Assembly: GCF_014274465.1 (NCBI RefSeq)
Contig: NZ_CP060394.1
Span: 992,001-1,056,000 of the forward strand
Source of the DNA: Alloacidobacterium dinghuense
GTDB taxonomy: Bacteria > Acidobacteriota > Terriglobia > Terriglobales > Acidobacteriaceae
Direction: 5' to 3'
DNA: 64,000 bases
Both the position numbers and the translations under genes were made by a program. Position 1 is the stretch's first letter; every line of letters starts with the position of its first letter. The notes beneath the pieces were generated by a model that saw only the letters and a program-made list of their open reading frames with translations, searched no databases and was not told the origin of the DNA. Positions 7,860 through 56,913 of this stretch are shown piece after piece.

Positions 7860-8131
7860 GTTCCAATGACCTCTCTTGCTGACCTATGCATTCCGGGGAT
7901 GGGGCTCAAGAGTCTCTGCCCCGGAAAGTCCAATAGCTGCCAGCATCTACCGCATTCAAACAGGACCTCAGTTTCAGTGATTCATTGAAAGAATTCAAGC
8001 CAATTTAGTCGCCTTGCATCGCCGGAGACAACTGTTGCGCCAACTTGCAGTTCGCCCTTTCACGAATTTCAACAACTTTCTGACTATCTTTTGTCTCATG
8101 GCCAGCGGATTCGTGGTGATATTGTCGAGGC

Positions 8132-10195
8132 ATGTTTTTTCGGCTAGTTCTGGCGACATTGACCTGCATGGTCGGCGCATGTCTCTGTGCCGAGACGGTG
8201 TCTCCATCCCCCTCCTCACTGGAAATTCAATCTCTCGGCCCTGGGGCAGTGTCGCTGGACGGACCATGGCAATTTCGTCTTGGCGATGATCTGGCGTGGA
8301 GGTCACCTTCCTATGATGATTCGGCCTGGGAATCAATAGATCCATCAACCTCCTGGGGAAGCCAAACGCATCATGCTTACACGGGTTTCGCGTGGTATCG
8401 GAAACACCTGCGAATCATGTCAGCTGAGCAACAAGGTAACTACGCTTTGCTCATGCCACCAGTAAATGATTCTTATGACCTGTACTGGAACGGCGTCTTA
8501 GTGGGCCACCAGGGTAACGGTCCACCTAACCCCCACTGGTTTTATAATCCGCTGCCCCAAAGCTTCACCGTGCCATCGAGCAGAGAAGACACAATCGCAA
8601 TCCGCGTTTGGAAGTCTCCGCCTTTATTCGTCGACTCAGGTACGCTCGGTGGATTGCATGGGGCACCTTTATTGGGCGATCCCGATACGATCTCTGCTCA
8701 GGAAGCAGAGCAGAATTCAGAGTCCATACATCAGGTCCTATATGAGTACACGCTGCTGATCTTGTATGGGATGGTAAGCATTTTCAGCCTTCTACTTTGG
8801 GGTAGAGAGCATAAGATCCGAGTGTTTCTTTGGCTAGCGCTGTTCACGGCGACCACGGTAGCACTTGCAGTTCTGCAAGGTCTCTTTTCTCTTCCGATTT
8901 CCTATGGACTGGGTCGAGGACTGAACCAACCCATCTATGCGTTGAATCATGTTTCGCTCTGGCTCTTGCTCTTGTGGTTGCTGCGCCTGAATGGAAAACG
9001 ACGCTTGGTGCGTTGCACTCGTATTCTTGCCATCTGCACGTTATCTGTCGCCCTACTGGACGGATTTCTTGCGCCGTTCTGGGGAACTGCGGGCGACTGG
9101 ATGCAGACTATCGACGCGATTCTGACCTCGTTGATGCTGGCCGTCCAGGTATATCCGATTCTGATCATCTTGATGGGAATCCGGCAACGGTTGGATTCAG
9201 CTCATTGGGCGGTAGCCATTAGCGCTTTCATATCGCAAATCATCAACATTATTGCCGATATGAGCGCAGCAGGACAGCGCTTCACTCACTGGACACTTTT
9301 CGAACGCATTATCAATACACCGCTCTTCGTGATTCACGGCATCGCCTTTTGGGCTTCGAATGTTATTGAAATTGTTCTCTTTGTCTCTATCCTCTATGCC
9401 GTTTATCGCTTCGACACAGAGCGCCAGACACGGCAAAGCTTGCTGGAACGCGAGATGCAAAGCGCACGCGAGATACAGGGACTATTGATTCCGGAAGCCA
9501 TGCCGTCCCTGGAGGGTTATGCTGTCACGAGTGCCTATCGTCCAGCTCTCGAAGTTGGCGGAGACTTCTTCCAGATCATGCGTCGTAAGAATGGATCCAC
9601 CATCGTCGCGCTTGGCGATGTGAGCGGCAAGGGCTTAAGAGCGGCTATGACCGTCTCTCTTATCGTGGGAATTTTGCGTTCACTTTCTGACGCGTCTTAC
9701 AGCCCGGCGCAGATATTGCAGGTGTTGAATCGTTGTTTGTACGGGCGGCTGCAGAACGGGTTCGTGACTGCTGTCATCTTACAACTTCACCACAATGGAA
9801 CAGTCACGATAGCCAATGCCGGTCACTTGCCTCCATTTCTGAACGAAAAGGAGCTTGCTACCGAGGGTTCTCTGCCGCTTGGGCTTTCGCCAGCGTTAAC
9901 CTACGAAGAATCTTCAGTGCATCTGCAACAACGAGATCAACTGAGCATCTATACGGATGGACTGCTCGAGGCGAGAAATACCACTAGAGAACTCTACGGA
10001 TTTGACCGGTTACACACTCTATTCGCAACCCAGCCAACCGCGCAGCAGGTAACTGAAGCGGCCATAGCCTTTGGTCAGAACGATGACATTACGGTCCTTA
10101 CTTTTACTCGACTCGCCCAAGGCGAGGAGGCAACCACATCTGTGACTGCCTCATTCGCCGAATCGAGCGTCGAAAGTCTTATCGAGCTACCGTAA
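8132..10195 (+). CDS. Membrane 7TM-SpoIIE phosphatase with extracytoplasmic sugar-binding-like domain
   Basis: The 687-residue protein starts with a signal peptide (MFFRLVLATLTCMVGACLCAE). Residues 35-190 resemble the jelly-roll of glycoside hydrolase family 2 N-domains ('SLDGPWQFRLGDD', 'DDSAWESIDPSTSWG', 'GFAWYRKHLRI', 'NDSYDLYWNGVLVG'), a fold that is also found ahead of 7TMR-type receptors. Residues 205-425 hold about seven hydrophobic helices. Residues 445-660 are a SpoIIE phosphatase ('AREIQGLLIPEAMP', 'EVGGDFFQ', 'ALGDVSGKGLRAAM', 'NAGHLPP', 'IYTDGLLEAR', 'GQNDDITVL'). It should sense an external, perhaps carbohydrate, ligand and dephosphorylate a cytoplasmic STAS protein; candidates are encoded on both sides. 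The 3' end overlaps the convergent Ig-repeat gene by 17 bp. Confidence 0.85.
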   Translation: MFFRLVLATLTCMVGACLCAETVSPSPSSLEIQSLGPGAVSLDGPWQFRLGDDLAWRSPSYDDSAWESIDPSTSWGSQTHHAYTGFAWYRKHLRIMSAEQQGNYALLMPPVNDSYDLYWNGVLVGHQGNGPPNPHWFYNPLPQSFTVPSSREDTIAIRVWKSPPLFVDSGTLGGLHGAPLLGDPDTISAQEAEQNSESIHQVLYEYTLLILYGMVSIFSLLLWGREHKIRVFLWLALFTATTVALAVLQGLFSLPISYGLGRGLNQPIYALNHVSLWLLLLWLLRLNGKRRLVRCTRILAICTLSVALLDGFLAPFWGTAGDWMQTIDAILTSLMLAVQVYPILIILMGIRQRLDSAHWAVAISAFISQIINIIADMSAAGQRFTHWTLFERIINTPLFVIHGIAFWASNVIEIVLFVSILYAVYRFDTERQTRQSLLEREMQSAREIQGLLIPEAMPSLEGYAVTSAYRPALEVGGDFFQIMRRKNGSTIVALGDVSGKGLRAAMTVSLIVGILRSLSDASYSPAQILQVLNRCLYGRLQNGFVTAVILQLHHNGTVTIANAGHLPPFLNEKELATEGSLPLGLSPALTYEESSVHLQQRDQLSIYTDGLLEARNTTRELYGFDRLHTLFATQPTAQQVTEAAIAFGQNDDITVLTFTRLAQGEEATTSVTASFAESSVESLIELP

Positions 10196-13004
10196 TCGTT
10201 ATCGTCGAACTGGCCGCCGCGTAGTTGGTCCCCCCGCTGTAGTTTGCGGCTATAGTATGGCTGCCATTCGAAAGCGAGGACGCCGAAACTGTGACTGTGG
10301 CTACACCTAAGGCATTCACCGGCATATTACCCAGCAGGTTGCTCCCATCGAAGAAAGAAACAGTACCAATCGCGTTCGGGGGGCCGGCACTCCATGACTG
10401 AATAGACGCGGTGAGCGTGAGCGTGCCGCCGGTCAAATACCAGCTGGAGGGGGTGAGTTGTATAGTCACCGGAGCTGGCGTCACGACGAAAGTAACTTTG
10501 CTCGGATTCGCAGCGGCGTAGTTCGTCTGGGCGGCATAGCCGATGATTAGGACATGCGTTCCAGCCGGAGGCTTCACCAAAGTGAACTGCGCAACGCCAT
10601 TTTGCAAAGTTAGCGATACGGGCGCCGCACCATCATACTGATAGGTCACGACGCCTTGTGGTGGTCCTGCATTCGAACTGGTATAAACTCCGCATTGGAA
10701 GTTGGCGCCATAAGGGTAGTTCAGATTCCAGCAGGACGTGCTGAGATTTACCGGCACTGGGTTCACGATGAGTTGCACCGGCGTAGAAGTGCCTCCGGGA
10801 TTAAATGCGTCACCCGCATACGTCGCGCTCAGTTGATGGACGCCAACTGGAAGTCCCTGGATATACAGATACGCCGCGCCATTTCCTTGTAGTGAGGAGG
10901 TCTGGAGAACCTTCGTGCCGTCGAGCAACTGGACCGTCCCGGTAGGCGTGTGTCCCTTGGTGGGAGCGATGCTGATTGTAACGTTGGTTCCTTGAGGGTA
11001 TGTGACCGTGGTGGAACTCAACGTGACCTTGATTGCAGAATCAAACGCGGCTGTCACGACATATTGGACTGAGGTTGATACTTGATTGCCCGCCGCATCG
11101 ATAGCCGTAACGGTGTAGGTCTTTGGTCCTGCCGTCGATGTGTCAACAGGGCTACTAATCGCGCCTGTGTTCAACACCCCCGAACTCGGCGAATAGGTCG
11201 AACTGCCACACCGTATGATCCCCGAGCGTTCATCGGTGCAGCTATAGGTTGCGGTAACCGCTTGGCCAACTGTATACGCATTGCCTGCTCCGGGCGCGGG
11301 AGAAAGAGTTGGCCCGGACGCGATCACAGGTGCGATGGTGTCTACGTTCACTGGAAACGTGTAATAGCCAGTCGACCAGCTTCCGCTGGAATCTTGCGTA
11401 AACTTAAGTTCCTCAGTTCCTGCGCAATCCTGTGCAAAGTAATGAATCAGGTAATTACCATCCGACAACCCGGTGAGGTTTTGCGGTGTTGTAAAGGTCG
11501 TCGCTGCTGGGTCGGTTGGATTGGCAGCAGTGGGACAGGCAATGGCGTTCTCTACCGTTGTATCCGTCGTGGATGGTGCGCTCGGCATGGGGACATTATT
11601 GGCAGCCGAAATCCCGTAAGTAATGCTTCTAATGGGAGATGGGACAAAGGCCGCAGCACCTGGAAGATTCGTTCCGGTAAGGACAGGCGGTTGACTTGAA
11701 AACGTAACGCTTGCGCTTGACGAATTGATCCAGCCTCCAGCTTGTTGATTCGCAACCGTAACCGTAGTCAGATCTTCAGGGACCTGTGCTACTGGAATAA
11801 AAGTCGAATTGGGATGGGTTACGTGACCAGTCGCCTCGTACACTCCTGGACCGCTGAAATTAGTCAGCAGGTTCTGAGGGCACAGCAGATCCTGCAGATT
11901 CGAAGCCGGATCGAAAGTGCATGGCCCGCCCGTCCAACCTTCAGCCGCCATTAAGAGCCCGATTCCTTGATGGAATGTGATGCCACTCGGTGTTGTGATA
12001 TCTGGCAACGTAAAGCCAGGCCCGTCAAAGATGTCCATGAAAATTTCATTTGGCAGCGAAGAGACGGGGCATTGAGCACCGCTACCCGTAGCGCCAGTTC
12101 CAACCGTGCATTGGAGAGTAAAAAGTTTGCACGCCGGCTGATTCTCGATCAGCTCCCCGGTGTGAATGAGGCACGTGGACGTAGCAAAAGAGGTGCCGGG
12201 AACAAGAGTCGATTGAAAAGCCGTCTGACTTACGGGAGAATCCTGCATTTGCGGAATGGTATTGGGGGATATAGTCAGACTTCCTGCAGCTTGGGCCTGG
12301 GAAAGGTCGTAAACAGACTGGATTTGTTGGTCAGTTCCCGAATTGAATGGGAAATTCTGGGTTAGCTGTTGAGGTGTCGGATTGTTCTGGGGGATTGGAT
12401 TCCCGGTAATCGTCGACGGGCCGGTGACCCCGCTCTGTGTACAATTCGTATTGAGATAAATCGTTGAGCTTGCGAGAAAGCCGCCCTCGTCAACCAAATC
12501 GATTTTTATTTGCTGTGCACCCGCTTGCAGTTGTGAGCTGATGTCGATAGGAGAAACCCCTCCGGTGCTTACCAGAGTATCGGGATTTTGACCGGTCAGG
12601 TTCCCTGCGCCTGCCGGAATTTGATAACTCGAAGTGAAACAATTCTGAACTGGGCCACTTGGTGTCGAGTCGGCGGTCCCGCCTCTACAGACGTTCACCG
12701 GCCCAACGATGGGCACGCCAGACAAAGAATTCACAGTCAAGTTAATGAAGTTGTCTACCAGCACCTTCCCCGTTCCGTCTGTAGAGGACGATAGAACAGC
12801 CGCAATTGGGGTACTGGGACAACTGAGGTTAATGGTCGCGCTGTTGAATGTTACAGCGCTGGCTCCGTAACCTGTGCCATTCGCGGAACTTCGCACGTTG
12901 ACAGGGTCAAATATCTTTATTGGCGTCTGTGCTTCTGAAGCAGAATGGCTAAAGAACAGGCAAAAGATTATCGTGCCTACAACGCTAAAGATTGTTTTCT
13001 GCAT
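10179..13004 (-). CDS. Secreted Ig-like repeat protein
   Basis: The 941-residue protein starts at MQKTIFSVVGTIIFCLFF, a signal peptide cut after 'ASEAQ'. An upstream in-frame ATG 132 bases earlier has no signal-peptide logic, so I chose the internal start. The N-terminal half is Thr/Ser/Pro/Asn-rich, has several Cys pairs and matches no family I can name. About residues 575-650 form a 'DTIAPVIASGPTLSP...AVTATYSCTDERSGI' Ig-like unit. The C-terminus carries three Big_3-type Ig-like repeats ('VTLSSTTVTYPQGTNVTISI', 'GTVQLLDGTKVL', 'LPVGVHQLSATYAGD'; the last ends 'GSHTIAANYSGGTNYAAASS'). Proteins of this type are common in Acidobacteriota as surface or extracellular adhesins. It lies between two partner-switching modules, without evident functional link. 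Confidence 0.8.
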   Translation of the reverse strand: MQKTIFSVVGTIIFCLFFSHSASEAQTPIKIFDPVNVRSSANGTGYGASAVTFNSATINLSCPSTPIAAVLSSSTDGTGKVLVDNFINLTVNSLSGVPIVGPVNVCRGGTADSTPSGPVQNCFTSSYQIPAGAGNLTGQNPDTLVSTGGVSPIDISSQLQAGAQQIKIDLVDEGGFLASSTIYLNTNCTQSGVTGPSTITGNPIPQNNPTPQQLTQNFPFNSGTDQQIQSVYDLSQAQAAGSLTISPNTIPQMQDSPVSQTAFQSTLVPGTSFATSTCLIHTGELIENQPACKLFTLQCTVGTGATGSGAQCPVSSLPNEIFMDIFDGPGFTLPDITTPSGITFHQGIGLLMAAEGWTGGPCTFDPASNLQDLLCPQNLLTNFSGPGVYEATGHVTHPNSTFIPVAQVPEDLTTVTVANQQAGGWINSSSASVTFSSQPPVLTGTNLPGAAAFVPSPIRSITYGISAANNVPMPSAPSTTDTTVENAIACPTAANPTDPAATTFTTPQNLTGLSDGNYLIHYFAQDCAGTEELKFTQDSSGSWSTGYYTFPVNVDTIAPVIASGPTLSPAPGAGNAYTVGQAVTATYSCTDERSGIIRCGSSTYSPSSGVLNTGAISSPVDTSTAGPKTYTVTAIDAAGNQVSTSVQYVVTAAFDSAIKVTLSSTTVTYPQGTNVTISIAPTKGHTPTGTVQLLDGTKVLQTSSLQGNGAAYLYIQGLPVGVHQLSATYAGDAFNPGGTSTPVQLIVNPVPVNLSTSCWNLNYPYGANFQCGVYTSSNAGPPQGVVTYQYDGAAPVSLTLQNGVAQFTLVKPPAGTHVLIIGYAAQTNYAAANPSKVTFVVTPAPVTIQLTPSSWYLTGGTLTLTASIQSWSAGPPNAIGTVSFFDGSNLLGNMPVNALGVATVTVSASSLSNGSHTIAANYSGGTNYAAASSTITITVAR

Positions 13005-13688: not shown

Positions 13689-14129
13689 ATGCCAATCGAA
13701 CAACTGCAAGACTTCCTTGTGCTAGACAGCCGACTGACCGAGGTGAGCCGAGCGCAGTCATGGGCTGAGGCATTTGCAGACCGGTTCGGTGTGACTGAGA
13801 ACATCCGTTACGCAATTCGGCTGTGCCTGGAAGAGGCTCTGGCCAACGTCATTCGTCATGGCTATCGGAGTGAGTCTGGGCATCGTATCGTTATTCGGTG
13901 CTGGTGTTCATCGGACACGTTGTTTTTTGCGATCGATGACAAGGCTTTGCTTTTCAATCCAGCTGACGCTCTGCCTCGGGACGATGGATCCGAACCGGTG
14001 AGTCTTGAGTCGATTGCACCAGGCGGAAACGGACTACCGCTACTCCGACACTTCGCAGGATCGTTGGCTTACGAGAGGCTTCCCGAGGGAAATCGGCTGA
14101 CGATGGGTTTCTCAATTTCAGTCTCGTGA
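13689..14129 (+). CDS. RsbW-like anti-sigma serine kinase
   Basis: The 146-residue GHKL ATPase shows the N-box 'RLCLEEALANVIRHGYRSE' (residues 45-63), the G1-like 'FAIDDKALLFNPADAL' with a non-canonical glycine pattern, and the G2-like 'PGGNGLPLLRHFAGSLAYER' that matches the RsbW family. Its partner is almost certainly the STAS protein encoded 25 bp upstream. The G1 box lacks the usual DxGxG spacing, which is common in this subfamily and need not abolish ATP binding. Presumed role: sequester a target until the STAS partner is dephosphorylated. Confidence 0.83.
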   Translation: MPIEQLQDFLVLDSRLTEVSRAQSWAEAFADRFGVTENIRYAIRLCLEEALANVIRHGYRSESGHRIVIRCWCSSDTLFFAIDDKALLFNPADALPRDDGSEPVSLESIAPGGNGLPLLRHFAGSLAYERLPEGNRLTMGFSISVS

Positions 14130-43908: not shown

Positions 43909-44787
43909 ATGAGTAATCTACTGACCCTGATTCAAGAGAATCGGGACGCAATACTAAATGAATGGTTACAAGCAATCCGCGAAGTGAGCAGCAGGCGCGG
44001 CTTAATTGATGATCGTGAGCTGGAAACGCAGACCTCAGAAGTATTGGCGGCGATCTATATTGTCCCGACCGAAACACCTCTCAATAACCTCGACACGTCA
44101 GCGTGGCGGCCATTAAAGGATCTTCTGGCTAACCTGTCGGCATCGCGGGCCATTCAGGGGTTTACTCCTTCTGAAACAGCTATGTTCGTGCTTTCCCTGA
44201 GAGCACCGCTCTTTGCCCTGATCAGAAAGCACTGGGGCAATAAAGCGGATCAGCTCTTTGCGGAAATCACCGTCGCCGCTGATTTTATCGACAAGTTGGC
44301 CCTTCACACGACAGACAGTTATATTCATGGACGCGATCAAGTCATCATCAGGCAGCAGGAGGAGATGCTGGAACTCTCGACTCCAGTGGTGACTCTATGG
44401 GATGGAATCGTGGCTCTCCCTCTGATCGGAACACTAGACAGCGCGCGGACGCAGGTGGTGATGGAATCGCTCCTTCAGGCCATCGTGCAGACAAATTCCC
44501 GGGTTGCGATTATCGATATAACCGGCGTTCCTACAGTCGACACTCTCGTTGCTCAACATTTGCTTAAGACGATTACCGCAGCGCGACTCATGGGTGCTGA
44601 TTGCATTCTCAGCGGTATTCGGCCACAGATTGCTCAAACGATCGTTCACCTCGGCATCAACCTCGAAGAGGTGACGACGAAGGCGAGGCTGGCAGATGCG
44701 TTCCGTCTCGCCCTGGAGCGAAGTGGCCGCGCAGTCGTTCGGGTCGCTAAAAATAACACCGTTTCGGCAGTCTCCAAGGAGTTCTGA
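43909..44787 (+). CDS. rsbR: RsbR-like stressosome sensor (RsbRD-type N-domain + STAS)
   Basis: The 292-residue protein has a helical sensor N-domain (residues 1-145, 'MSNLLTLIQENRDAILNEWL', RsbRD_N type) joined by a helix to a STAS domain (155-275). The STAS motifs match RsbR closely: 'STPVVTLWDGIVALPLIGTL', 'IIDITGVPTVDTLVAQHLLK', 'LSGIRPQIAQTIVHLGINL'. Thr205 and Thr209 lie in the 'DITGVPTVDT' switch segment that RsbT phosphorylates in Bacillus; Thr175 in 'GTLDSAR' is near the second known site. It would co-assemble with RsbS to form the stressosome that traps RsbT. The stop and the rsbS start share a base (TGATG). It is the first gene of a six-gene overlapping array. Confidence 0.9.
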   Translation: MSNLLTLIQENRDAILNEWLQAIREVSSRRGLIDDRELETQTSEVLAAIYIVPTETPLNNLDTSAWRPLKDLLANLSASRAIQGFTPSETAMFVLSLRAPLFALIRKHWGNKADQLFAEITVAADFIDKLALHTTDSYIHGRDQVIIRQQEEMLELSTPVVTLWDGIVALPLIGTLDSARTQVVMESLLQAIVQTNSRVAIIDITGVPTVDTLVAQHLLKTITAARLMGADCILSGIRPQIAQTIVHLGINLEEVTTKARLADAFRLALERSGRAVVRVAKNNTVSAVSKEF

Positions 44788-45176
44788 TGGAACGGATTCC
44801 AATTCTGCGCATGGGAGACTTGCTCCTGGTAACAATCCAGGTAGACATGCACGACAAGCTCGCTCTTACCCTTCAGGATGATCTGACAACAAAAATTGCA
44901 GAAGTCGGAGCAAAGGGTGTTCTCATTGACATCTCATCGCTGGAGATCGTGGATTCATTTATAGGACGAACGCTGGCAAATATCGCTTCCATGGCGAAGG
45001 TGCTCGATTCGCAAACAGTCGTAGTCGGAATGCAGCCCGCGGTTGCCATCACACTTGTTGAATTGGGGATGTCGTTGCCGGGCATTCGTACAGCGTTGAA
45101 TGTTGAGTCTGGTATGGAATATCTGCGGGAAAATGTGACCGAGGGCCAGGACAATGGGGACAGTACAGAAGACTGA
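44787..45176 (+). CDS. rsbS: RsbS-like stressosome scaffold (STAS)
   Basis: The 129-residue single STAS domain begins 'MERIPILRMGDLLLVTIQVD', as RsbS proteins do, and has the RsbS switch motif 'SSLEIVDSFIGRTLANIAS' with the acceptor Ser57. 'TVVVGMQPAVAITLVELGM' is the RsbR/S interaction helix. In the stressosome, unphosphorylated RsbS and RsbR hold RsbT; phosphorylation of Ser57 releases it. Its start overlaps the rsbR stop and its last 23 bp overlap rsbT, consistent with co-translation and fixed ratios. Confidence 0.9.
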   Translation: MERIPILRMGDLLLVTIQVDMHDKLALTLQDDLTTKIAEVGAKGVLIDISSLEIVDSFIGRTLANIASMAKVLDSQTVVVGMQPAVAITLVELGMSLPGIRTALNVESGMEYLRENVTEGQDNGDSTED

Positions 45177-45561
45177 AACAGTCCCCATCAAGACCGACTC
45201 CGACGTCGTGTCGGTACGTCAGCGAGTGCGTACCTGGGCGATCGAAATGAAGTTCAGCCTTGTGGACCAGACAAAGATCGTAACCGCGGCGAGCGAACTA
45301 GCTCGAAATACGCTCGAACATGGAAAAGGCGGAGACCTGGAGCTAGCTGTGATTGAAAATGGCATCCGGAAAGGGTTGCGACTAGCATTTTCGGACCGTG
45401 GACCGGGGATTCCGGATGTTAAACAGGCGTTGACCGATGGCTTTACGACAGGGCAGGGAATGGGGCTTGGTCTTGGCGGAAGCAAGCGGCTCATGAACGA
45501 ATTCGAAATCGATTCCAAACCAGGCGGCGGAACGACAGTCACTGTCATCCGATGGAAGTGA
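45154..45561 (+). CDS. rsbT: RsbT-like switch serine/threonine kinase
   Basis: The 135-residue GHKL ATPase matches RsbT: 'VRQRVRTWAIEMKFSLVDQT' then the N-box 'AASELARNTLEHGKGGDLEL' (residues 45-64), G1 'FSDRGPGIPDVKQALTDGF' and G2 'GMGLGLGGSKRLMNEFEI'. RsbT phosphorylates RsbS and RsbR and, when released, activates a downstream partner (RsbU in Bacillus). No RsbU-like phosphatase follows here. Instead the next genes carry further RsbT-like domains and histidine-kinase modules, so the released kinase may act on those. It overlaps rsbS by 23 bp and the next gene by 10 bp. Confidence 0.9.
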   Translation: MGTVQKTETVPIKTDSDVVSVRQRVRTWAIEMKFSLVDQTKIVTAASELARNTLEHGKGGDLELAVIENGIRKGLRLAFSDRGPGIPDVKQALTDGFTTGQGMGLGLGGSKRLMNEFEIDSKPGGGTTVTVIRWK

Positions 45562-46577
45562 CTGTGCTCATCAATCGACTCATATCTCTCCAGGCCAACG
45601 ATTTGAGCCAAGTTGGCAATGCACGCAGGCAGGCCATGGCCATAGCAGGTTCTGTGGGTTTCGATGACACTCGACAGGGAGAGCTTGGCATCATCGTCAC
45701 AGAAGCAGCCCGCAACATTGCGATGCATGCTGATTCAGGCGAGCTGATTCTGTGCCCCTGGTCGCTGGACGGCATGAAAGGTATCGATGTTTTCGCGCTC
45801 GACCGGGGCAAGGGTATTGCAAATATCGAAAGGGCGTTAGAAGACGGATATTCCACGGCGGGAACTGCTGGTCAAGGCATGGGAGCGATGCAACGTCTGG
45901 CCGGAGATTTCCAGATTTATTCGGCGGCCAGCCAGGGGACGGCGCTTTTTGCCCGTGTTCTTTATGGCCCTGCCACATCAAGGCCGAATATAGGACCCTC
46001 GCAGGGAGCTATTTCCGTTGCAGTAGCTGGAGAGTCCGTTTGTGGCGACGCGTGGAGTTCATGCCATACTCCGGAACGCAGCATCTACATCGTTGCTGAT
46101 GGCCTCGGCCATGGCCCACTGGCAGCCGAGGCAGCGCAGGAGGCCATTAGAGTATTCCATGAATCGTCAGAACGCTCCCCGGAGCAGATACTAGGAGAGA
46201 TTCATGGCGCACTGGCAAAGACTCGTGGAGCTGCCGTCTCCATCGCAGAAATCCTGTATGACAGGCGCAGCGTGAATTACGCGGGAGCAGGCAACATAGC
46301 AGCTGTCCTCTGGTCAAAGGGAAAGAGCAGAAGTTTGGTTTCGATGAACGGAACAGTTGGCCATTCGGTTGGCAAACTTCAGTCTTTCTCCTACCCCTGG
46401 GAATCAAATTCCATGTTGATCATGCATTCCGACGGGTTGGGAACCCGATGGAGTCTGGATCAATATCCTGGTCTCTCCCAACGCCATCCTGCTTTGATTG
46501 CCGCTGTTCTCTTTCGCGACTTCAGCAGAAAACGCGACGATGCGACAATCGTTGTGTCACGAATCCAGTCAGAATGA
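45552..46577 (+). CDS. RsbT-like ATPase fused to RsbX-type PP2C phosphatase
   Basis: The 341-residue protein has an N-terminal RsbT-like GHKL domain (residues 1-137): N-box 'IIVTEAARNIAMHADSGELI', G1 'ALDRGKGIANIERALEDGY', G2 'GQGMGAMQRLAGDFQIYS'. Residues 150-338 are a SpoIIE/RsbX-type phosphatase: 'VADGLGHGPLAAEAAQEAIR' (Asp183 in the metal site), 'VNYAGAGNIAAVLW', 'NGTVGHSVGKLQSF', 'MLIMHSDGLGTRW' and 'RDDATIVV'. RsbX resets the stressosome by dephosphorylating RsbR and RsbS. Fusion of kinase-like and phosphatase units in one chain suggests that this protein both docks in the complex like RsbT and resets it. It overlaps its neighbours by 10 and 4 bp. Confidence 0.88.
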   Translation: MEVTVLINRLISLQANDLSQVGNARRQAMAIAGSVGFDDTRQGELGIIVTEAARNIAMHADSGELILCPWSLDGMKGIDVFALDRGKGIANIERALEDGYSTAGTAGQGMGAMQRLAGDFQIYSAASQGTALFARVLYGPATSRPNIGPSQGAISVAVAGESVCGDAWSSCHTPERSIYIVADGLGHGPLAAEAAQEAIRVFHESSERSPEQILGEIHGALAKTRGAAVSIAEILYDRRSVNYAGAGNIAAVLWSKGKSRSLVSMNGTVGHSVGKLQSFSYPWESNSMLIMHSDGLGTRWSLDQYPGLSQRHPALIAAVLFRDFSRKRDDATIVVSRIQSE

Positions 46578-48706
46578 AAGACATTCAAAATTATTCGATA
46601 TTTACGCTTCGTCTTCGGCAGGAACGGCATGTGGTCTACGCGCGCCAACGGGCAAGAGAAATTGCGAAACTGCTCGGGTTCGATCACCAGGAACAAATAC
46701 GCCTTGCCACGACAGCTTCGGAATTAGCACGAAACGCATTTCGATACGCCACAAATGGAGCGGTCGAGTTTCTGGTTCAGGATTCGTCGCCACAGCTCTT
46801 TCTCATCTCGGTTACGGATGAAGGTCCGGGGATTGCGAACCTTGCTGAGATTCTGAACGGGCAATACGTTTCAAAGACGGGCTTGGGTAAAGGCATTATA
46901 GGAACGAGCCGTCTGATGGATCACTTCAACATCACCGCACCCCCAGGCGGTACCCGCGTGGAAGCCGGCAAATGGCTTCCAGCTTCGGCGCCGCGCATTG
47001 ATGCGAATCGAGCCAAGGCGATCTCAACCCAACTGGCCAGTACAGACACTGCTGATCCATTCGATGAAATCGAGCGTCAGAATCAGGAATTGCTCAAGAC
47101 TCTGGCAACGCTTCGGGAAAAGCAGGAGCAACTCGCTGAACTCAACCGCGAACTGGAAGATACGAATCGAGGTGTCGTGGCGCTCTACGCCGAACTCGAT
47201 CAGCATGCCGACGATCTAAGGCGGGTATCGGACCTCAAGACTAGTTTTCTATCCAATCTTTCCCACGAATTCAGGACGCCGCTCAATTCCATCATTTCGC
47301 TCAGCCGATTACTGCTCAATCGATCCGATGGGGATCTCTCACTGGAGCAGGAAAAGCAAGTTATCTATATTCAACGTTCTGCGTCCGAATTGTCCGAACT
47401 TGTCAATGATCTTCTGGATCTTGCCAAGGTTGAAGCAGGAAAAACGGAGGTAAGAGCCAAGTATTTCGAAGTGCAGGATGTTTTTGGTGCGCTGAGGGGG
47501 GTTTTAAAGCCACTTTTAGTCGGCAACAGTCTTGAATTGATCTTTGACGCACAGGTGAACCTCCCGCCGCTGTATACGGATGAAGGAAAAGTATCCCAGA
47601 TCCTTCGAAATCTGATTTCGAACGCGCTGAAGTTCACTCGTCGCGGGCATGTTCGTGTGACGGCAAATCTCGATGCAGAAGACAACGATGTTGTCTTCAG
47701 TGTGTCCGACACCGGAATTGGAATTGCGCCCGAAAACCTGGAACGGATATTCGAGGAGTTTGTTCAAGTAGAGAGTGAGCTGCAAAGCCAGGTAAAGGGT
47801 ACCGGTTTGGGACTTCCGTTATCACGGCGATTGGCGGAACTGCTGGGCGGAACGCTCAAGGTCGACAGCGAACCGGGAGTGGGATCGACTTTTGTTCTTA
47901 CGGTTCCGGTTATCTATGGGAAGACCCAGCAGGGAACGACGCAGGAAGCACAAATCGCGGAGGCAAGTGGTCCGGCCATACTGTTGATCGAGGATAATCG
48001 CGAAGCCAATTTTGTCTACGAGTCCACACTCAAGAATACAAAGTATGAATTGACTTTCGTCGCATCTCTTCACGAAGCGCGGACCGCGATGAAACGGCTG
48101 AAGCCTGCTTTGGTATTAATGGATCGCTTGCTCGATGGTGAAGACAGCTTATTTTACATTGAAGAGCTGCGGTCCACAGGCTTCTTAGGTCCAGTCCTCG
48201 TTGTCAGTGTAGTCGACGATGTGAAAGCAGCACTCGATGCGGGAGCGGCAGCATTCCTGGCAAAGCCAGTGGTGCCATTTACTTTGTTAAGTACGGTTCA
48301 GGAACTCATCGAAGGACAATCTGCCAAAACGCTCCTGCTCGTCGATGACGATGAGGTTACCCGCTATTTGCTTGGTGAAGCCCTGTCCAGGCTCGGGTAT
48401 CGTGTTCTAGAAGCCAGGAATGGGCGCGAAGCGATCAAGACAGTCAAGGAACGCGTCGTGGACGGCGTTTTTCTCGACATTATTATGCCGGGACTGGATG
48501 GGTTTGAAGTACTGAAGGAAATTCGTGCGAATGAGAATTCAAAATTCATCCCGATCATAATTCATTCCTCGAAAAACCTCTCCGTACAGGAACTGAATCT
48601 AATCGCCGGTATGAGCGTAACGATCTATCCGAAACAGGCCTTAGCAACGGACGCAAGCACAGCCGCACTGCGGAATGCGCTGAAAATGGGGGGAATTGAA
48701 GAATGA
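46574..48706 (+). CDS. RsbT-like domain fused to hybrid histidine kinase with two receivers
   Basis: The 710-residue protein starts at ATG 46574 (ATGA overlap with the upstream stop; an in-frame ATG 42 codons earlier is less likely). Residues 5-135 are an RsbT-like GHKL domain: 'HVVYARQRAREIAKLLGFDH', N-box 'TTASELARNAFRYATNGAVE', G1 'VTDEGPGIANL', G2 'GLGKGIIGTSRLMDHFNI'. After a coiled coil (160-215) comes HisKA (His231 in 'LSNLSHEFRTPLNSI'), HATPase (331-445, 'NLISNALKFTRRG', 'DTGIGIAPENLERIFEEFVQ', 'GTGLGLPLSRRL'), receiver 1 (Asp516) and receiver 2 (Asp635). The unusual N-domain links a partner-switching protein directly to a His-Asp phosphorelay. The next gene overlaps by ATGA. Confidence 0.88.
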   Translation: MKDIQNYSIFTLRLRQERHVVYARQRAREIAKLLGFDHQEQIRLATTASELARNAFRYATNGAVEFLVQDSSPQLFLISVTDEGPGIANLAEILNGQYVSKTGLGKGIIGTSRLMDHFNITAPPGGTRVEAGKWLPASAPRIDANRAKAISTQLASTDTADPFDEIERQNQELLKTLATLREKQEQLAELNRELEDTNRGVVALYAELDQHADDLRRVSDLKTSFLSNLSHEFRTPLNSIISLSRLLLNRSDGDLSLEQEKQVIYIQRSASELSELVNDLLDLAKVEAGKTEVRAKYFEVQDVFGALRGVLKPLLVGNSLELIFDAQVNLPPLYTDEGKVSQILRNLISNALKFTRRGHVRVTANLDAEDNDVVFSVSDTGIGIAPENLERIFEEFVQVESELQSQVKGTGLGLPLSRRLAELLGGTLKVDSEPGVGSTFVLTVPVIYGKTQQGTTQEAQIAEASGPAILLIEDNREANFVYESTLKNTKYELTFVASLHEARTAMKRLKPALVLMDRLLDGEDSLFYIEELRSTGFLGPVLVVSVVDDVKAALDAGAAAFLAKPVVPFTLLSTVQELIEGQSAKTLLLVDDDEVTRYLLGEALSRLGYRVLEARNGREAIKTVKERVVDGVFLDIIMPGLDGFEVLKEIRANENSKFIPIIIHSSKNLSVQELNLIAGMSVTIYPKQALATDASTAALRNALKMGGIEE

Positions 48707-50157
48707 TCGATGATCAACCTGTCGTATTGATCGTCGATGACCGCGAGGCGAATCGCTACACAATCGCACACACTCTTAAGCGTTCAGGCTTTCAGGTGAT
48801 GGAAGCTTCGAATGGTAAAGAAGCACTCGAGATGGCAAACCGCATCCCGGCTGTCATTTTGCTCGATGTGAGACTCCCCGACATTCTTGGGTATGAAGTC
48901 TGCCGGCGAATCAAGTCCAATCCAAATACCGGCTTTATTCCCATCGTGCAGCTATCAGCGGCGTTTCTCGATAATGAAAGCAAGATTTATGCGTTGGAGA
49001 GTGGAGCAGATGCTTACCTAACCCAGCCTGTCGAACCAAATGTTCTGGTCGCTACCATCAAATCTCTCGTCAGGCTACATCGCGCGGAATCGCAGTCGCG
49101 GCTTTCCGCCAAGCAATGGCAGGCTACCTTCGATGGACTCTCCGAAGGTATTGCCCTTACGGATTCGTTAGGAGTGGTGCAGCGGAGCAATCGCGCATTA
49201 TCAAAACTATTGGATCGCCCCTACCTAGAAATTGAGAAGCATCCGTTGAACGATCTGCTCAGCGCGCATTTTGGCATGGAAGTTGATTGCCGAAAGAAAC
49301 AGCAGTTTTCAGAGATCCAATACGATGATCGTTATTTTGACCTCAGCCTGGAGCCGATATTTCTTGATGAAGTGCATACAAGCAGCATTTTGATTCTTTC
49401 CGAAATAACAGCACGCAAGGTAGCCGAGGCCGCTGTACTTGCGAACGAACGTCTAGCCGCAACCGGGCGCATGGCGAACACAATTGCTCATGAGATCAAT
49501 AATCCTCTTGAAGCAATCACGAATCTTCTTTATCTACTAAAGAGTACGTCCGACCCTGACAGGGCTAGGGACTATCTCGATTCTGCTCAAATAGAAGTCG
49601 AGCGCGTCTCAAAAATTGCGCGGAGAATTCTCTCTTTCAACCGCGAGTCCAAGGCTCCCGTTCCCGTGAAGTTATCCGAACTTCTTGAAGATGTTCTGGC
49701 GCTTAACAACCGTGGACTTGTTGACAAAAATCTTTGGGTCATCCGCGAGTGGGATTCAAGTCTATGCATCGAGGGATTTCCCGCGCAGTTACGGCAGGTA
49801 TTTTCGAACATAATCCGCAACGCAATTGAAGCGGCACTTCCAGAAACGAGGCTTCGTCTCAGGATTTCGGGATACCCACGGAATGGCTCGGTTGGCGGAC
49901 GGATTGCCCGGGTGACAATTTCCGATCAGGGCGTTGGGATACCTGCACCGAATCTCAGGAAAGTCTTTGATGCCTTCTTTACAACGAAAGAGCTAAGGGG
50001 ATCAGGCATCGGTCTGTGGCTCAGTAGCGCGATCGTGCGTGAGCATCATGGATACATTCGAGTGCGCAGCAGCATCCAACCTGGCTTGTCTGGAACATGT
50101 CTTTCCGTAATGTTGCCGTGTCAGTGGCACTCCGATCCACCTCCAGCCAAGGATTGA
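48703..50157 (+). CDS. Receiver-PAS histidine kinase
   Basis: The 484-residue protein has an N-terminal receiver (phospho-acceptor Asp55 in 'VILLDVRLPD'), a PAS-like domain (residues 135-235, 'WQATFDGLSEGIALTDSLGV'), HisKA (His263 in 'NTIAHEINNPLEAITNL') and a HATPase domain ('QVFSNIIRNAIEAALPE', 'SDQGVGIPAPNLRKVFDAFF', 'GSGIGLWLSSAIVREHHGY'). The receiver lacks the usual conserved Lys: the 'YLTQPVEP' segment has Gln108 in place of the Lys of KP. This predicts altered phosphorylation dynamics. It overlaps the upstream hybrid kinase by 4 bp and is last in the rsbRST array. A paralogue with the same layout lies at 56931. Confidence 0.85.
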   Translation: MIDDQPVVLIVDDREANRYTIAHTLKRSGFQVMEASNGKEALEMANRIPAVILLDVRLPDILGYEVCRRIKSNPNTGFIPIVQLSAAFLDNESKIYALESGADAYLTQPVEPNVLVATIKSLVRLHRAESQSRLSAKQWQATFDGLSEGIALTDSLGVVQRSNRALSKLLDRPYLEIEKHPLNDLLSAHFGMEVDCRKKQQFSEIQYDDRYFDLSLEPIFLDEVHTSSILILSEITARKVAEAAVLANERLAATGRMANTIAHEINNPLEAITNLLYLLKSTSDPDRARDYLDSAQIEVERVSKIARRILSFNRESKAPVPVKLSELLEDVLALNNRGLVDKNLWVIREWDSSLCIEGFPAQLRQVFSNIIRNAIEAALPETRLRLRISGYPRNGSVGGRIARVTISDQGVGIPAPNLRKVFDAFFTTKELRGSGIGLWLSSAIVREHHGYIRVRSSIQPGLSGTCLSVMLPCQWHSDPPPAKD

Positions 50158-50583: not shown

Positions 50584-53500
50584 ATGAAAAAGAACAGGCC
50601 GAGTGGTGCGGTCATATCTGATCCGGCCACTGCTGAAGTCAACAATGCTTTAAGCGGAAACGGACATACTATTTCGGGGGAGTCGGTAACGGCGGAACTA
50701 GGCGTAATCCTGGCGAGCCTGCAAAAGATGAAGGAGGGCAATTTTTCTGTCCGCCTGCCTGGAGCGTGGACAGGGCTCGCTGGAAAAGTAGCAGATACCT
50801 TCAATGACATCATCGCAGCAAATGAACAGATGGCGCTCGAACTGGCCAGGGTAGGTCAGGCTGTCGGGAAGAAAGGGCGCATTCGTGAGCGTGCCCGTTT
50901 CCATGCCCCCAAGGGCGCCTGGGGTGAGATGGAAACTTCCATCAATACCCTCGTTGACGACCTGTTGCGGCCGACGACAGAAGTCACACGTGCTATCGCT
51001 GCAGTCGCACAGGGCAGCCTCAATGAAAAAGTGCGACTCGACGTAGACGGCCGCCCTCTGGAAGGCGAGTTCCTGCGTTCGGCAAACATCGTGAACACGA
51101 TGATTCAGCAGTTAAGCGTCTTCACGTCAGAGGTTACGCGCGTGGCCCGCGAAGTCGGCACTGATGGCAAGCTCGGAGGACAGGCCGTGGTGCCCGGAGT
51201 TGCCGGAACCTGGAAGGACCTCACGGATTCCGTCAACCTGATGGCCAGCAACCTCACCAGCCAGGTGCGCAACATTGCTGAAGTAGCTACGGCGGTAGCA
51301 AGCGGCGACCTCTCACGCAAGATCACTGTCGACGTACACGGCGAGATTCTCCAGCTGAAAGAAGCCATTAACACGATGGTGGATCAGCTGCGATCTTTTG
51401 CTTCGGAAGTGACGCGCGTTGCGCGCGAAGTTGGAACAGATGGCAAGCTCGGCGGACAGGCGGTCGTTCCGGGCGTTGCCGGAACATGGAAGGATCTTAC
51501 CGACTCTGTGAATGCCATGGCGGGAAACCTGACGGCGCAGGTACGCAACATTGCCGAAGTAACAACCGCCGTGGCCCGCGGAGACCTGTCGCGCAAGATC
51601 ACTGTGGATGTGAAGGGAGAAATTCTTGAACTCAAAGAAACCATCAACACGATGGTTGATCAGCTCAACGCCTTCGCCGGTGAAGTGACACGCGTGGCGC
51701 GCGAAGTTGGAACCGAGGGAAAGCTGGGCGGCCAAGCTAGTGTGCCCGGAGTCGCTGGCACGTGGAAGGACCTGACTGACAACGTCAACTTCATGGCCAG
51801 CAACCTGACGGGTCAGGTGCGCAATATCGCCGAGGTTGCGACGGCAATTGCGAATGGCGATCTCTCCCGCAAGATTACCGTCGACGTTCGCGGCGAGATT
51901 CTTCAGCTCAAAGAAACGCTGAATACGATGGTTGATCAGCTAAACCGCTTCGCTGGCGAAGTAACGCGCGTGGCGCGCGAAGTGGGAACCGAGGGCAGGC
52001 TTGGGGGACAGGCAAACGTGCCCGGCGTTGCCGGAACGTGGAAGGACCTGACGGACTCAGTGAATTCGATGGCCGGAAACCTGACCGGACAAGTGCGCAA
52101 CATTGCAGAAGTTACAACCGCTGTTGCTGGCGGAGACTTGTCGCGCAAGATCACTGTCGATGTGAAGGGCGAAATCCTCGAACTCAAAAACACCATCAAT
52201 ACAATGGTGGACCAGCTTAACGCCTTTGCCAGCGAAGTAACGCGCGTGGCCCGCGAAGTCGGTACGGACGGCAAGCTCGGCGGACAGGCACAGGTGCCCG
52301 GCGTCGCTGGCACGTGGAAAGACCTAACCGACAACGTCAACTTCATGGCCAGCAACCTGACCGGCCAGGTGCGCAACATCGCTGAGGTTGCCACGGCCGT
52401 GGCACGTGGAGACTTGTCACGCAAGATCACCGTCGATGTCAAGGGCGAGATTCTAGAACTAAAGAACACGCTCAACACAATGGTTGACCAGCTGCGCGCA
52501 TTTGCTTCTGAAGTGACGCGCGTGGCTCGCGAAGTGGGTACGGACGGCAAGCTGGGCGGACAGGCCGCGGTGCCGGGTGTCGCGGGAACATGGAAAGATC
52601 TCACCGACTCGGTGAACTCGATGGCCAGCAACCTGACCAACCAGGTCCGCAACATCGCAGAGGTAGCCACGGCCATTGCCAGTGGCGACCTTTCGAAAAA
52701 GATCACAGTAAACGTCAGCGGCGAAATTCTTCTGCTCAAAGAAACCATCAACACGATGGTGGACCAGCTCAACGCCTTCGCCGGCGAAGTGACGCGCGTG
52801 GCTCGCGAGGTGGGTACGGAGGGAAATCTCGGTGGACAAGCCAGCGTGCCGGGAGTCGCCGGAACCTGGAAAGACCTTACCGACAACGTCAACTCGATGG
52901 CCGGAAACCTCACCAGCCAGGTGCGAAACATTGCTGAGGTTACGACAGCAGTAGCCCGCGGTGACCTGTCGCGTAAGATCACGGTCGACGTGAAGGGGGA
53001 AATCCTCGAACTTAAGAACACCATTAATACGATGGTGGACCAGCTCAATGCATTCGCCGGTGAAGTAACGCGCGTGGCCCGCGAAGTCGGCACCGACGGT
53101 AAGCTTGGCGGACAGGCACAGGTGCCCGGCGTCGCTGGTACGTGGAAAGACCTTACCGACAATGTAAACTTCATGGCCAGCAACCTGACCGGCCAAGTGC
53201 GCAACATCGCTGAGGTCGCCACGGCAATCGCTAACGGAGACTTGTCGAAGAAGATCACCGTCGACGTCCGCGGCGAAATCCTGCAGCTGAAGGAAACGCT
53301 GAACACGATGGTGGAGCAGCTGCGTTCCTTCGCGGCTGAGGTAACGCGCGTCGCGCGCGAAGTCGGCACCGACGGCAAGCTGGGTGGACAAGCTGTCGTG
53401 CCTGGCGTCGCCGGTACATGGAAGGACCTTACCGACTCCGTTAATGCTATGGCAGGAAACCTGACTGCTCAGGTGCGCAACATCGCTGAAGTAACTACGG

Positions 53501-56500
53501 CCGTCGCGCGCGGTGATCTGTCGCGCAAGATCACCGTAGATGTGAAAGGCGAAATTCTAGAACTCAAAGAAACCATCAACACCATGGTGGATCAGCTCAA
53601 CGCCTTCGCAGCTGAAGTAACGCGCGTTGGACGCGAAGTAGGAACCGAAGGCAGACTGGGAGGCCAAGCCCAGGTCCCTGGCGTTGCCGGTATCTGGAAG
53701 GACCTGACCGACAACGTGAATGTCATGGCTGCAAACCTGACCGAACAGGTGCGCGGCATCGTGAAAGTGGTGACGGCGGTCGCCAACGGCGTGCTCACGC
53801 AAAAGCTCACCGTGAACGCCAAGGGAGAAGTCGCCGCTCTGGCGGAGACGATCAACAGCATGACTGACACGTTGGCGACATTTGCCGATCAGGTAACTAC
53901 GGTGGCGCGCGAGGTCGGCGTCGAAGGCCGTCTCGGTGGACAGGCGAATGTGCCCGGCGCTGCTGGAACCTGGAAGGATCTTGTCGATAACGTAAACCTG
54001 CTTGCTGACAACCTGACCAACCAGGTTCGCGCCATCGCTGAAGTTGCAACGGCTGTGACAAAAGGCGACCTCACGCGGTCGATTCAGGTAGAGGCAAGAG
54101 GGGAAGTCTCAGAGTTGAAGGACAACATCAACACGATGATCAACAATCTTCGACTCACCACTGAGCGCAATACAGAACAGGATTGGCTCAAGACTAACCT
54201 TGCGCGCTTTACCGGTATGCTGCAAGGGCAGCGCGAACTGAGCACCGTAGGCCGCATGCTCCTTTCCGAACTGGCTCCGCTTGTGAATGCGCAACAGGGT
54301 GTGATCTACCAGATGGATTCCGAAGAGCCCGGTACCCTTACACTGCTCTCCGCCTACGCAAGCACACCGGCCGGACAACTCGAACGGATACCAATTGGCC
54401 AAGGCCTGATCGGCCAATGCGCGACCGAAAAGAAGCGGATGCTGATTGCCGATCTGCCGCCAAAGTCCACCATTCCCATTCGATCCGGCCTTTTTGAGTC
54501 AGTCCCGCAGAACGTAATCGTCTTGCCGGTGTTGTTTGAAGATCGAGTGAAGGCAGTGATCGAGTTGGCTACGCTCAGGGCGTTCACAGCCTCACATCTT
54601 GCTTTCCTGGAGCAGCTCACATCCAGCATCGGCATTGTATTGAACAGCATTGAAGCGACGATGCAGACCGAGGCGCTGCTGAAGCAATCGCAACAACTCG
54701 CCACCGAGCTTCAATCACAGCAGACAGAATTGCAGCAGACAAACGAACAGCTCGGGCTGAAGGCGCAGGAGCTGGCCGAACAAAATGTGGAAGTCGAACG
54801 CAAGAACCAGGAAATCGAGCAGGCCCGCAGAGCTCTGGAAGAAAAGGCCAAAGAACTGGCCCTCACTTCGAAGTACAAGTCAGAATTTCTGGCCAACATG
54901 TCGCATGAGTTGCGCACTCCGTTAAACAGCATTCTCGTTTTGGGGCAGCAACTCAGCGACAATCCGGATGGCAACCTTACTTCAAAGCAAATCGAATTTG
55001 CCCGCACGATCCATGCTGCTGGAACCGATCTGCTCACTCTGATCAGCGATATTCTCGATCTCTCAAAGATCGAGTCTGGTACGGTTTCCGTAGATGCGGA
55101 AGAGGTCTTCTTTGCCAGCCTGATTGAGATGGTTGCACGTCCGTTCCGGCATGAAGCTGAGAACAGAAAGCTTTCCTTCGATCTACACACGGATAAGCAT
55201 CTTACGCGCAGCCTGGTCACTGATTCGAAGCGTCTACAGCAGGTGCTCAAGAACTTGCTCTCGAATGCCTTCAAATTTACAGAGCAAGGCGGTGTTCTAC
55301 TCTCGGTGTTCAAAGCGGGCAATGGTTGGAGCGAGAATCATCCCATCCTGGGGAGCGCGGTTTCGGTGATCGCATTCGAAGTAGCTGACACGGGAATTGG
55401 AATCCCGCCAGAGAAGCAGAAAATTATTTTTGAAGCCTTTCAACAAGCGGATGCGGGTACGAGCCGCAAGTACGGTGGCACCGGGCTAGGTCTTGCAATC
55501 AGCCGCGAGCTTGCCAGTTTGCTTGGCGGTGAAATTCAATTGCGCAGTGCTCCAGGAAAAGGAAGCACATTCACCCTCTATCTGCCACAGACGTATGTTG
55601 GTCCTACAAGTTCAAGTAATACAGAGGATGCGTCAAGGGAGAAATCAAGAGTAGCTTCAGTCCTTCAACTTGCGAGCACATCTGTAGCCGAGCACTCGAC
55701 GGAAGAGGTTGAAGATGACCGCGGAACGCTGGAGCCGGGAGACACCACACTGTTGATCGTTGAGGATGACCCCCATTACGCTCGGGTTCTGTGCGATCTC
55801 GCTCGCGATAAAGGATTCAAAGTTCTGGTCGCATCGCGCGGCGCCGAGGCATTAGAGTTGGCGCGCGAATTTCGTCCCAGCGCTGTTTCGCTCGATGTAT
55901 TTCTGCCGGACATGCTGGGCTGGACGGTGCTCAATCATCTGAAGCAAGACCCGGGCATGCGGCATATACCTGTCCAGATGTTGACGATGGATGAGGATAG
56001 ACACCACGGCTTGTCACGGGGAGCATTTTCATTCGTGACCAAGCCAACGACGACCGAAGGTCTGGAAGCAACCTTGACTAAGATCAAGGAATTTTCGTCG
56101 ACACGACGCAAACGGCTGCTTGTGGTGGAAGATAATCCTGCCGAGCAGATGAGCATCAAGGAATTGCTCGGTTATGACGATATCGATGTATCCGTCGCTT
56201 CAAGCGGCGCGGAAGCTCTGGCTACAGTCCGCACACAGCAGGTTGACTGTGTGGTTCTTGATATGCGGTTGCCCGATATGACCGGCTTTGAGGTACTTGA
56301 ACAACTGCGAGATATGCCATCATTCAGCGACTTGCCGGTTGTCGTCTTTACCGGTAAGGAGTTGACTCCAGATGAAGATGCAAAGCTTCGCACGCTTGCC
56401 CGCAGCGTGGTCTTAAAGGATGTCGAATCGCCCGAACGCCTGCTGGATGAGACTTCACTGTTTCTCCATCGAGTAGTTGCTGATTTGCCGACGAATAAGC

Positions 56501-56913
56501 AGAATATGCTTGATCGTTTGCATAGATCAGACGACGCTCTGGTGGCGAAGAAGGTACTGGTTGTCGATGATGACGTGCGAAACATCTTCGCCCTGAGTAG
56601 CGTTCTTGAAAGAAGAGGTATGAGTGTTCTAACTGCGAGCACAGGGCGCGAGGCCATCGCCACACTTGAGTCCACACCCGATGTGGCGATTGTTCTGATG
56701 GATGTCATGATGCCGGAAATGGATGGATATGAGACCATGCAGGTCATACGTCGGAACGACGCCTACCGCAGGCTTCCGATCATCGCTCTTACAGCAAAAG
56801 CAATGAAGGGCGACCGAGAGAAATGCCTGGAGGCGGGTGCATCTGAATATCTGGCCAAGCCGGTGAATACGGAGCAGTTGCTGGCAGCTCTGCGTATGTG
56901 GCTCCACAGGTAG
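50584..56913 (+). CDS. Giant soluble hybrid histidine kinase with 11-unit HAMP array (group-III-like)
   Basis: The 2109-residue protein has no membrane helix. After a divergent N-terminal HAMP pair (~35-180) come eleven ~92-residue HAMP repeat units (about 181-1190), each '[19 protein letters not shown]', '[19 protein letters not shown]', '[20 protein letters not shown]', 'INTMVDQL'. A GAF domain (1200-1370) and coiled coil precede HisKA (His1441 in '[15 protein letters not shown]') and HATPase (~1553-1668, '[20 protein letters not shown]', '[13 protein letters not shown]'). Three receivers follow, with Asp1771, Asp1893 and Asp2040. HAMP arrays with this consensus characterise fungal osmosensing group-III kinases (Nik1/Os-1) and bacterial relatives. 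It probably senses osmotic or cell-wall stress in the cytoplasm. A second REC-PAS kinase gene follows after 17 bp. Confidence 0.9.
51124..54159 (+). repeat. Eleven tandem 276-bp units encoding the HAMP array
   Basis: The repeat unit is 276 bp (92 codons), in frame, with no gaps. Units start near 51124, 51400, 51676 and so on every 276 bp to 53884. Units 2 and 9 encode almost the same sequence; units 10 and 11 are the most diverged. Long DNA identity makes expansion or contraction by recombination likely. Confidence 0.9.

Follow-up and report, generated by a model that had tools for sequence, protein, structure and literature searches.

A 64,000-nt stretch of the genome of the soil bacterium Alloacidobacterium dinghuense (contig NZ_CP060394.1 of assembly GCF_014274465.1; genome size, 6.27 Mb), referred to here as "the window", carries a six-gene cassette in which the RsbR, RsbS and RsbT components of a stressosome are followed by a phosphatase and a hybrid histidine kinase that each bear an RsbT-like domain of their own. 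All coordinates given below are positions in the window. We propose that the output of this stressosome is probably wired by domain fusion, rather than by contact between RsbT and an RsbU_N receptor domain, such that the hybrid kinase (here termed "T-HK") is itself a stressosome client. The cassette is a new, widespread variant of the stressosome module, to be set beside the published rsbRSTX-two-component and RsbU_N-kinase modules. It bears on the open question of how stressosomes outside the Bacillales, or without a sigma factor, pass on their signal.

Gene content and conservation of the cassette

The six genes occupy positions 43909–50157 on the forward (+) strand, with end-to-start overlaps of 1, 23, 10, 4 and 4 bases, in order. 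The first gene (43909–44787, +) encodes an RsbR-type sensor/scaffold with an RsbRD_N four-helix sensor domain (Pfam, E = 2e-24) and a STAS domain (E = 4e-16). It is the sole RsbRD_N protein in the genome, its STAS domain matches the Vibrio RsbR structure 7o0i in a sequence search of solved structures (E = 8e-33), and its phospho-acceptor equivalents are S178 (Ser where Thr171 is expected) and T212. The second gene (44787–45176, +) encodes an RsbS-type STAS scaffold protein (Pfam STAS) with S57 as the phospho-Ser equivalent; it matches the solved Listeria RsbS (E = 9e-32) and the RsbS structure 6jhk (E = 1e-31). The third (45154–45561, +) encodes a stand-alone RsbT switch kinase (Pfam HATPase_c_2). 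Homology and residue conservation identify RsbR and RsbS as the STAS scaffold, and RsbT as the switch kinase.

The remaining three genes encode the putative reset and output components. The product of the fourth gene (45552–46577, +), here termed "TX", consists of an RsbT-like domain and an RsbX-type PP2C phosphatase (Pfam HATPase_c_2 and SpoIIE/PP2C), the latter matching the solved RsbX structure 3w40 (E = 1.7e-14). T-HK (46574–48706, +) consists of an RsbT-family domain (residues 1–140), a long helical linker, a HisKA-HATPase_c module and two successive REC domains (Pfam). Its true start is at 46574, where an ATGA overlaps the TX stop codon, and not at the mechanical open reading frame (ORF) start at 46448; relatives agree with this assignment. 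The last gene (48703–50157, +) encodes a kinase with REC, a PAS-like linker, HisKA and HATPase_c (Pfam). An initial annotation, made from the letters alone, had described six overlapping, same-strand genes with this RsbR, RsbS, RsbT, RsbT-RsbX and RsbT-hybrid-kinase content, and the ORFs and Pfam matches confirm it. For the last gene, which it called a REC-PAS kinase, the REC, HisKA and HATPase_c domains hold up, whereas no PAS domain is called by Pfam at E ≤ 0.01.

The arrangement is conserved far beyond chance, because the gene order RsbR-RsbS-RsbT-TX-T-HK is kept in all 72 homologous loci with complete upstream sequence. These loci come from a scan of 84,980 genomes, one per species, which yielded 415 related stretches; the best 80 of the 415 were analyzed and, together with the window, make up 81 loci. 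A gene encoding a REC-first protein follows T-HK in 67 of the 72. Of the nine other loci, seven are interrupted by contig ends and two (L110 and L126) lack RsbR, RsbS and RsbT. A narrower search of 60 related genomes, with the T-HK N-terminal domain as the query, recovered this cassette from nine more genomes at the level of genus, family, order and class, one of which (G018) lacks the adjacent REC-kinase gene. The neighborhood search that the initial annotation had proposed as a check therefore refutes the possibility that these genes are not conserved together.

Locus record titles name Acidobacteria, Cyanobacteria, Nitrospira, Rokubacteria, Methylomirabilota, Chloroflexi, Planctomycetota, Proteobacteria and Desulforhopalus, although single titles may be wrong, since many of the loci are metagenome bins. 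Complete genomes with the cassette include those of Terriglobus roseus DSM 18391 (L096) and Herbaspirillum huttiense (L135); among the matches listed, the named loci nearest in sequence to the window are from Acidobacterium sp. S8 and Silvibacterium. Strong, long-frame matches to T-HK, as judged from match score and frame length, were counted in ~15 of 396 Acidobacteriota genomes, 9 of 292 Cyanobacteria (the phylum of Chroococcus) and 10 of 399 from the phylum of Herbaspirillum. T-HK is therefore uncommon per genome and broadly spread.

Key residues are retained throughout. RsbS Ser57, RsbR T212 and RsbR S178 are each invariant (72/72), as are the five PP2C metal-ligand Asp residues of TX (78/78) and the phospho-acceptor His of T-HK (81/81). 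The cassette is inherited largely as a unit, since its core, T-type and kinase domains give correlated distances (r = 0.68–0.82; 68 loci). That the T domain might follow the core more closely than it follows the attached kinase domain was rejected as an artifact of two loci with exchanged kinases (L074 and L124); the effect is gone once both are removed. Two other observations concern T-HK copies. In L060/L040 (G002:C78, ~9999–12122 in L040), from a metagenome-assembled genome, the T-HK frame is split into two ORFs inside the kinase domain, reflecting either a sequencing error or a pseudogene. In L140 (G1040:C1), a second, stand-alone T-HK gene (6058–7518) lies beside a divergent RsbR gene, away from that genome's RsbR-RsbS-RsbT cassette; it is possible that this extra T-HK is an additional client or a spare sensor.

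RsbT ancestry and contact residues of the fused domains

To place the fused domains, a tree was built from the T, TX and T-HK domains, the classical RsbT proteins of the phylum, SpoIIAB, the RsbW-like domains of this genome, and a sequence that we take to be B. subtilis RsbT. The T, TX and T-HK domains are each monophyletic. The stand-alone T domains, the T-HK domains, classical RsbT and B. subtilis RsbT form one clade (support, 0.994) that excludes SpoIIAB and the RsbW-like domains. The TX domain falls just outside, as sister to the RsbT clade, and both alignment and tree place it as clearly more diverged than the T-HK domain. Thus, of the three successive RsbT-type domains proposed initially, two of them fused, the kinase-borne domain belongs to the RsbT clade, whereas the TX domain is a diverged paralogue.

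For the stand-alone RsbT, the catalytic Glu and Asn are invariant in 82 homologues; they are kept in 98% and 100%, respectively, of 90 T-HK domains, which have a SELARN motif. The positions predicted to contact STAS partners tell a similar story. In the RsbW-RsbV crystal structure, RsbW contacts its STAS partner through Arg23, Asp42, Lys44/Ser48 and Glu49 (PMC7340262). Counting from the conserved Arg, which is R24 in T-HK, the contact columns in the fused domains have the same 0/+19/+25/+26 spacing as RsbW Arg23/Asp42/Ser48/Glu49. The cassette RsbT proteins have Lys, Ser and Glu at +19, +25 and +26, all at 100%, and the T-HK domains (n = 90) have Arg (100%), Arg (100%), Ser (100%) and Glu (98%) at the four positions. 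The corresponding TX residues are Arg (97%), variable, Thr (91%) and Glu (100%). Likewise, the equivalent of Gln20 of Listeria RsbT, a modeled contact to RsbR (PMC9237128), is Gln in 93% of RsbT and 100% of T-HK domains, and Arg in 95% of TX domains; the Arg of the SELAR motif is kept in just 21% of TX. By these residue counts, T-HK has an RsbT-like partner surface, of which TX has a diverged version. The T-HK domain is therefore not the ordinary RsbW-type ATPase that the initial annotation had considered as a contrary outcome: it groups with RsbT and keeps the contact positions, as well as the catalytic Glu and Asn. Its suggestion to align the fused domains with RsbT gave a divided result, with TX differing at some contact positions. 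An AlphaFold model of the T-HK domain (pLDDT 89) is consistent with this family assignment, with SpoIIAB and RsbW ranking best in a fold search; the matches came from the fold search, as phmmer with this domain against solved structures returned zero matches.

Some kinase-borne T domains appear to have become pseudo-ATPases. The Asn and Gly boxes of the ATP site are gone from the domains on the kinases of L141 (5981–8479), L143 (3–674) and L146 (4970–6175), and the T-HK domain of L047 lacks the ATP lid. Across degenerate and intact kinase-borne domains, Arg20, Arg39, Ser45 and Arg49 (L146 numbering) are invariant, and Glu46 is nearly so; the spacing of Arg20, Arg39, Ser45 and Glu46 is exactly that of RsbW Arg23/Asp42/Ser48/Glu49. 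For the degenerate domain of L146, the AlphaFold model has a mean pLDDT of 75.5 and is good in the N-terminal half only. In L146, an intact switch-kinase domain is retained only by the T-PP2C protein. L143, L144 and L146 all have a T-PP2C protein and no stand-alone RsbT, yet a T-like domain remains on the kinase. A docking role is favored because some kinase-fused T domains have lost ATP-binding residues and kept contact residues. In the related loci L151–L154, no stand-alone RsbT was found and the RsbT domain is solely on the T-PP2C fusion; among the kinases there, the N-terminal domains in L152 and L153 could not be established as T domains.

The kinase module changes while the T domain stays, a pattern that fits a T domain serving to dock effectors that can be exchanged. 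In L139 (6883–8118, G861:C2), an RsbT domain is joined to a HisKA_2/HWE-type kinase after RsbR, RsbS, RsbT and TX, and in L074 and L124 the kinases under the T domain lack REC domains. The last gene varies too; in L117 it encodes a REC-GGDEF protein (a REC-diguanylate cyclase).

Proposed stressosome output by domain fusion, and the alternatives

In the Acidobacteriota genomes sampled, the fused kinase and the RsbU_N receptor do not occur together. The initial annotation had remarked that no RsbU follows the cassette, and this holds for the whole 6.27 Mb genome, in which RsbU_N (PF08673) has zero matches. Among 396 Acidobacteriota genomes, RsbU_N is present in 0 of 15 with T-HK versus 13 of 23 with RsbT and without the fusion (Fisher p = 2.8e-4, a value that overstates independence because 9 of the 15 T-HK genomes are from one family), and in those 13 genomes it is encoded close to RsbT. 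T-HK genomes of other phyla likewise lack RsbU_N, except for a weak, sub-cut-off match in G454; G051 holds both T-HK and RsbU_N, on different contigs and hence at separate loci. In one cyanobacterial genome (G499), two loci (L149 and L150) have a kinase without a fused T domain and with RsbU_N instead (E = 5e-15 and E = 7e-17). L142 and L149 contain the same parts unfused: each has two T genes that stand alone, and its X gene is separate. From sequence comparison, the fused RsbT domain apparently replaces the separate RsbT-receptor domain.

We therefore favor, with reasonable but not strong confidence, a mechanism in which T-HK is held and released by the stressosome. The RsbT-family domain of T-HK would dock on the STAS surfaces of RsbS and RsbR as RsbT does. 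When RsbR senses a signal, T domains would phosphorylate RsbS S57 and RsbR S178/T212, affinity would fall, and T-HK would be freed along with RsbT. The change between docking and release would alter HisKA kinase activity via the helical linker, and phosphate could then pass from REC1/REC2 to the REC domain of the downstream kinase, and on to unlinked outputs; the last gene is probably the next phosphorelay step. TX would be the RsbX reset enzyme, with its RsbT-like domain probably bringing it to the phosphorylated scaffold, a role proposed less firmly than docking of T-HK.

Several points weigh against T-HK as a stressosome client, in addition to the family bias among fusion genomes. The charge at +19 differs, being Asp in RsbW and Lys or Arg in RsbT, with Leu or Val in the phylum's classical RsbT. 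The ATP site of the T-HK domain in the window is complete in its residues, so this domain may have kinase activity in addition to docking. L110 and L126 (~7000–10200) have kept T-HK, with a truncated TX and loss of RsbR, RsbS and RsbT; these may be decaying or rewired cassettes, and some T-HK proteins may therefore work without a local stressosome. Lastly, the 80 loci were selected by similarity to the T domain of the window's T-HK.

Three other explanations account for parts of these data. The T domain of T-HK could pair with stand-alone RsbT, not with RsbS or RsbR, such that a T-T heterodimer activates T-HK in place of the RsbT-RsbU_N contact. RsbW and SpoIIAB do dimerize, via alpha1/beta1 (PMC7340262), T-T contacts are proposed in a Listeria docking model (PMC9237128), and RsbU_N is missing where the fusion is present. 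We nonetheless consider this pairing unlikely: the positions kept in degenerate kinase-borne T domains are those that contact STAS domains, and L143, L144 and L146 have a T-like domain on the kinase without a stand-alone RsbT to pair with. Alternatively, the intact domain of T-HK, with its near-invariant catalytic residues, could be an extra Ser/Thr switch kinase with the stressosome, or another STAS protein, as its substrate. T-HK would then be placed upstream and the His-Asp system would be an input; the role of input integrator could suit a large hybrid kinase that has two REC domains. This arrangement seems decidedly improbable, given that ATP-site residues have been lost repeatedly with the fusion retained (L141, L143, L146 and, for the ATP lid, L047), that a stand-alone RsbT is already there, and that the mutual exclusion concerns RsbU_N, an output receptor.

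The neighborhood could also reflect operon inheritance only, with the T domain having an unrelated function and RsbT signaling by phosphorylating the kinase, as has been suggested for Vibrio. Most downstream proteins surveyed in earlier work lack RsbU_N, and RsbT-dependent phosphorylation of such sensor kinases was proposed instead; in Vibrio, contact between RsbT and an effector could not be shown (PMC9237108). Inheritance alone does not predict near-invariant contact positions across phyla, nor exclusion of RsbU_N, and we regard it as very improbable.

If T-HK is a stressosome client, the fused RsbT domain would explain how the signal is handed on in a large group of bacteria, and the kinase itself would be predicted to bind the scaffold. 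More broadly, and with only a slight leaning in its favor, we suggest that stressosome output is wired in either of two interchangeable ways: by "receptor" wiring, where RsbT, once freed, switches on an effector bearing RsbU_N, or by "client" wiring, where the effectors carry RsbT domains and the scaffold itself retains and releases them. Client wiring would extend over many phyla and fit different kinases, with the T domain sometimes being a pure docking pseudo-ATPase. The stressosome would then be a general holder of T-domain-tagged enzymes that links Ser/Thr partner switching to His-Asp phosphorelays, and could be of use in building stress-responsive kinases.

Known systems and neighboring genes

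The cassette resembles the RsbRST-RsbU-RsbX-SigB system of B. subtilis and Listeria in that RsbR, RsbS and RsbT are present and keep their phospho-acceptor and catalytic residues, and in that there is an RsbX-type phosphatase. It differs in that the genome lacks RsbU_N, that RsbX and a histidine kinase bear RsbT-family domains, and that a phosphorelay takes the place of the RsbU output. Closer in layout are the Gram-negative rsbRSTX modules of Vibrio vulnificus (VvD1/VvD2), Ruegeria and "Dogia", in which minimal stressosome genes precede genes for HisKA/REC proteins, with no SigB cascade (PMC9237108). Stressosome modules beside two-component genes are already published, as the initial annotation had noted. 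However, those modules have a single-domain PP2C RsbX and a globin-coupled-sensor RsbR, with no T-kinase fusion described (PMC9237108). In the present cassette, the X phosphatase is joined to an RsbT-like domain, the sensor of RsbR is RsbRD_N, and the kinase bears an RsbT domain.

RsbU_N-histidine kinases in stressosome operons have also been published (PMC9237108, PMC12143880), as has an RsbU_N-GGDEF protein in Moorella (PMC12143880). There, too, an N-terminal domain and a helical linker make the kinase or cyclase the effector, but the N-terminal domain is the RsbT receptor, whereas in T-HK it is the RsbT domain itself. For TX, the nearest likeness is the Rv1364c-type fusion (PDB 3ke6), which likewise unites a PP2C domain with a GHKL switch-kinase domain; the matched switch-kinase segment of 3ke6 is C-terminal (275–381 of 399), whereas in TX the RsbT-like domain is at the N terminus, and TX is encoded in a stressosome operon. 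Full-text literature searches, which did not cover the 2005 and 2017 stressosome reviews (Pane-Farre) or figure drawings, turned up no description of an RsbT domain fused to a histidine kinase. The initial view that such direct fusions are not standard agrees with this result, although the fusion is part of a recurrent cassette and not a one-off.

Downstream of the cassette, 50584–56913 (+) encodes a 2109-aa protein with 11–12 near-identical HAMP repeats, GAF, HisKA-HATPase and three REC domains. This HAMP-array kinase was considered as a further cassette member and rejected, since in relatives it is not found after the cassette. Elsewhere in the window, two RsbW-like HATPase_c_2 domains are encoded outside the cassette, at ~6289–6630 (−) and 13728–14105 (+).

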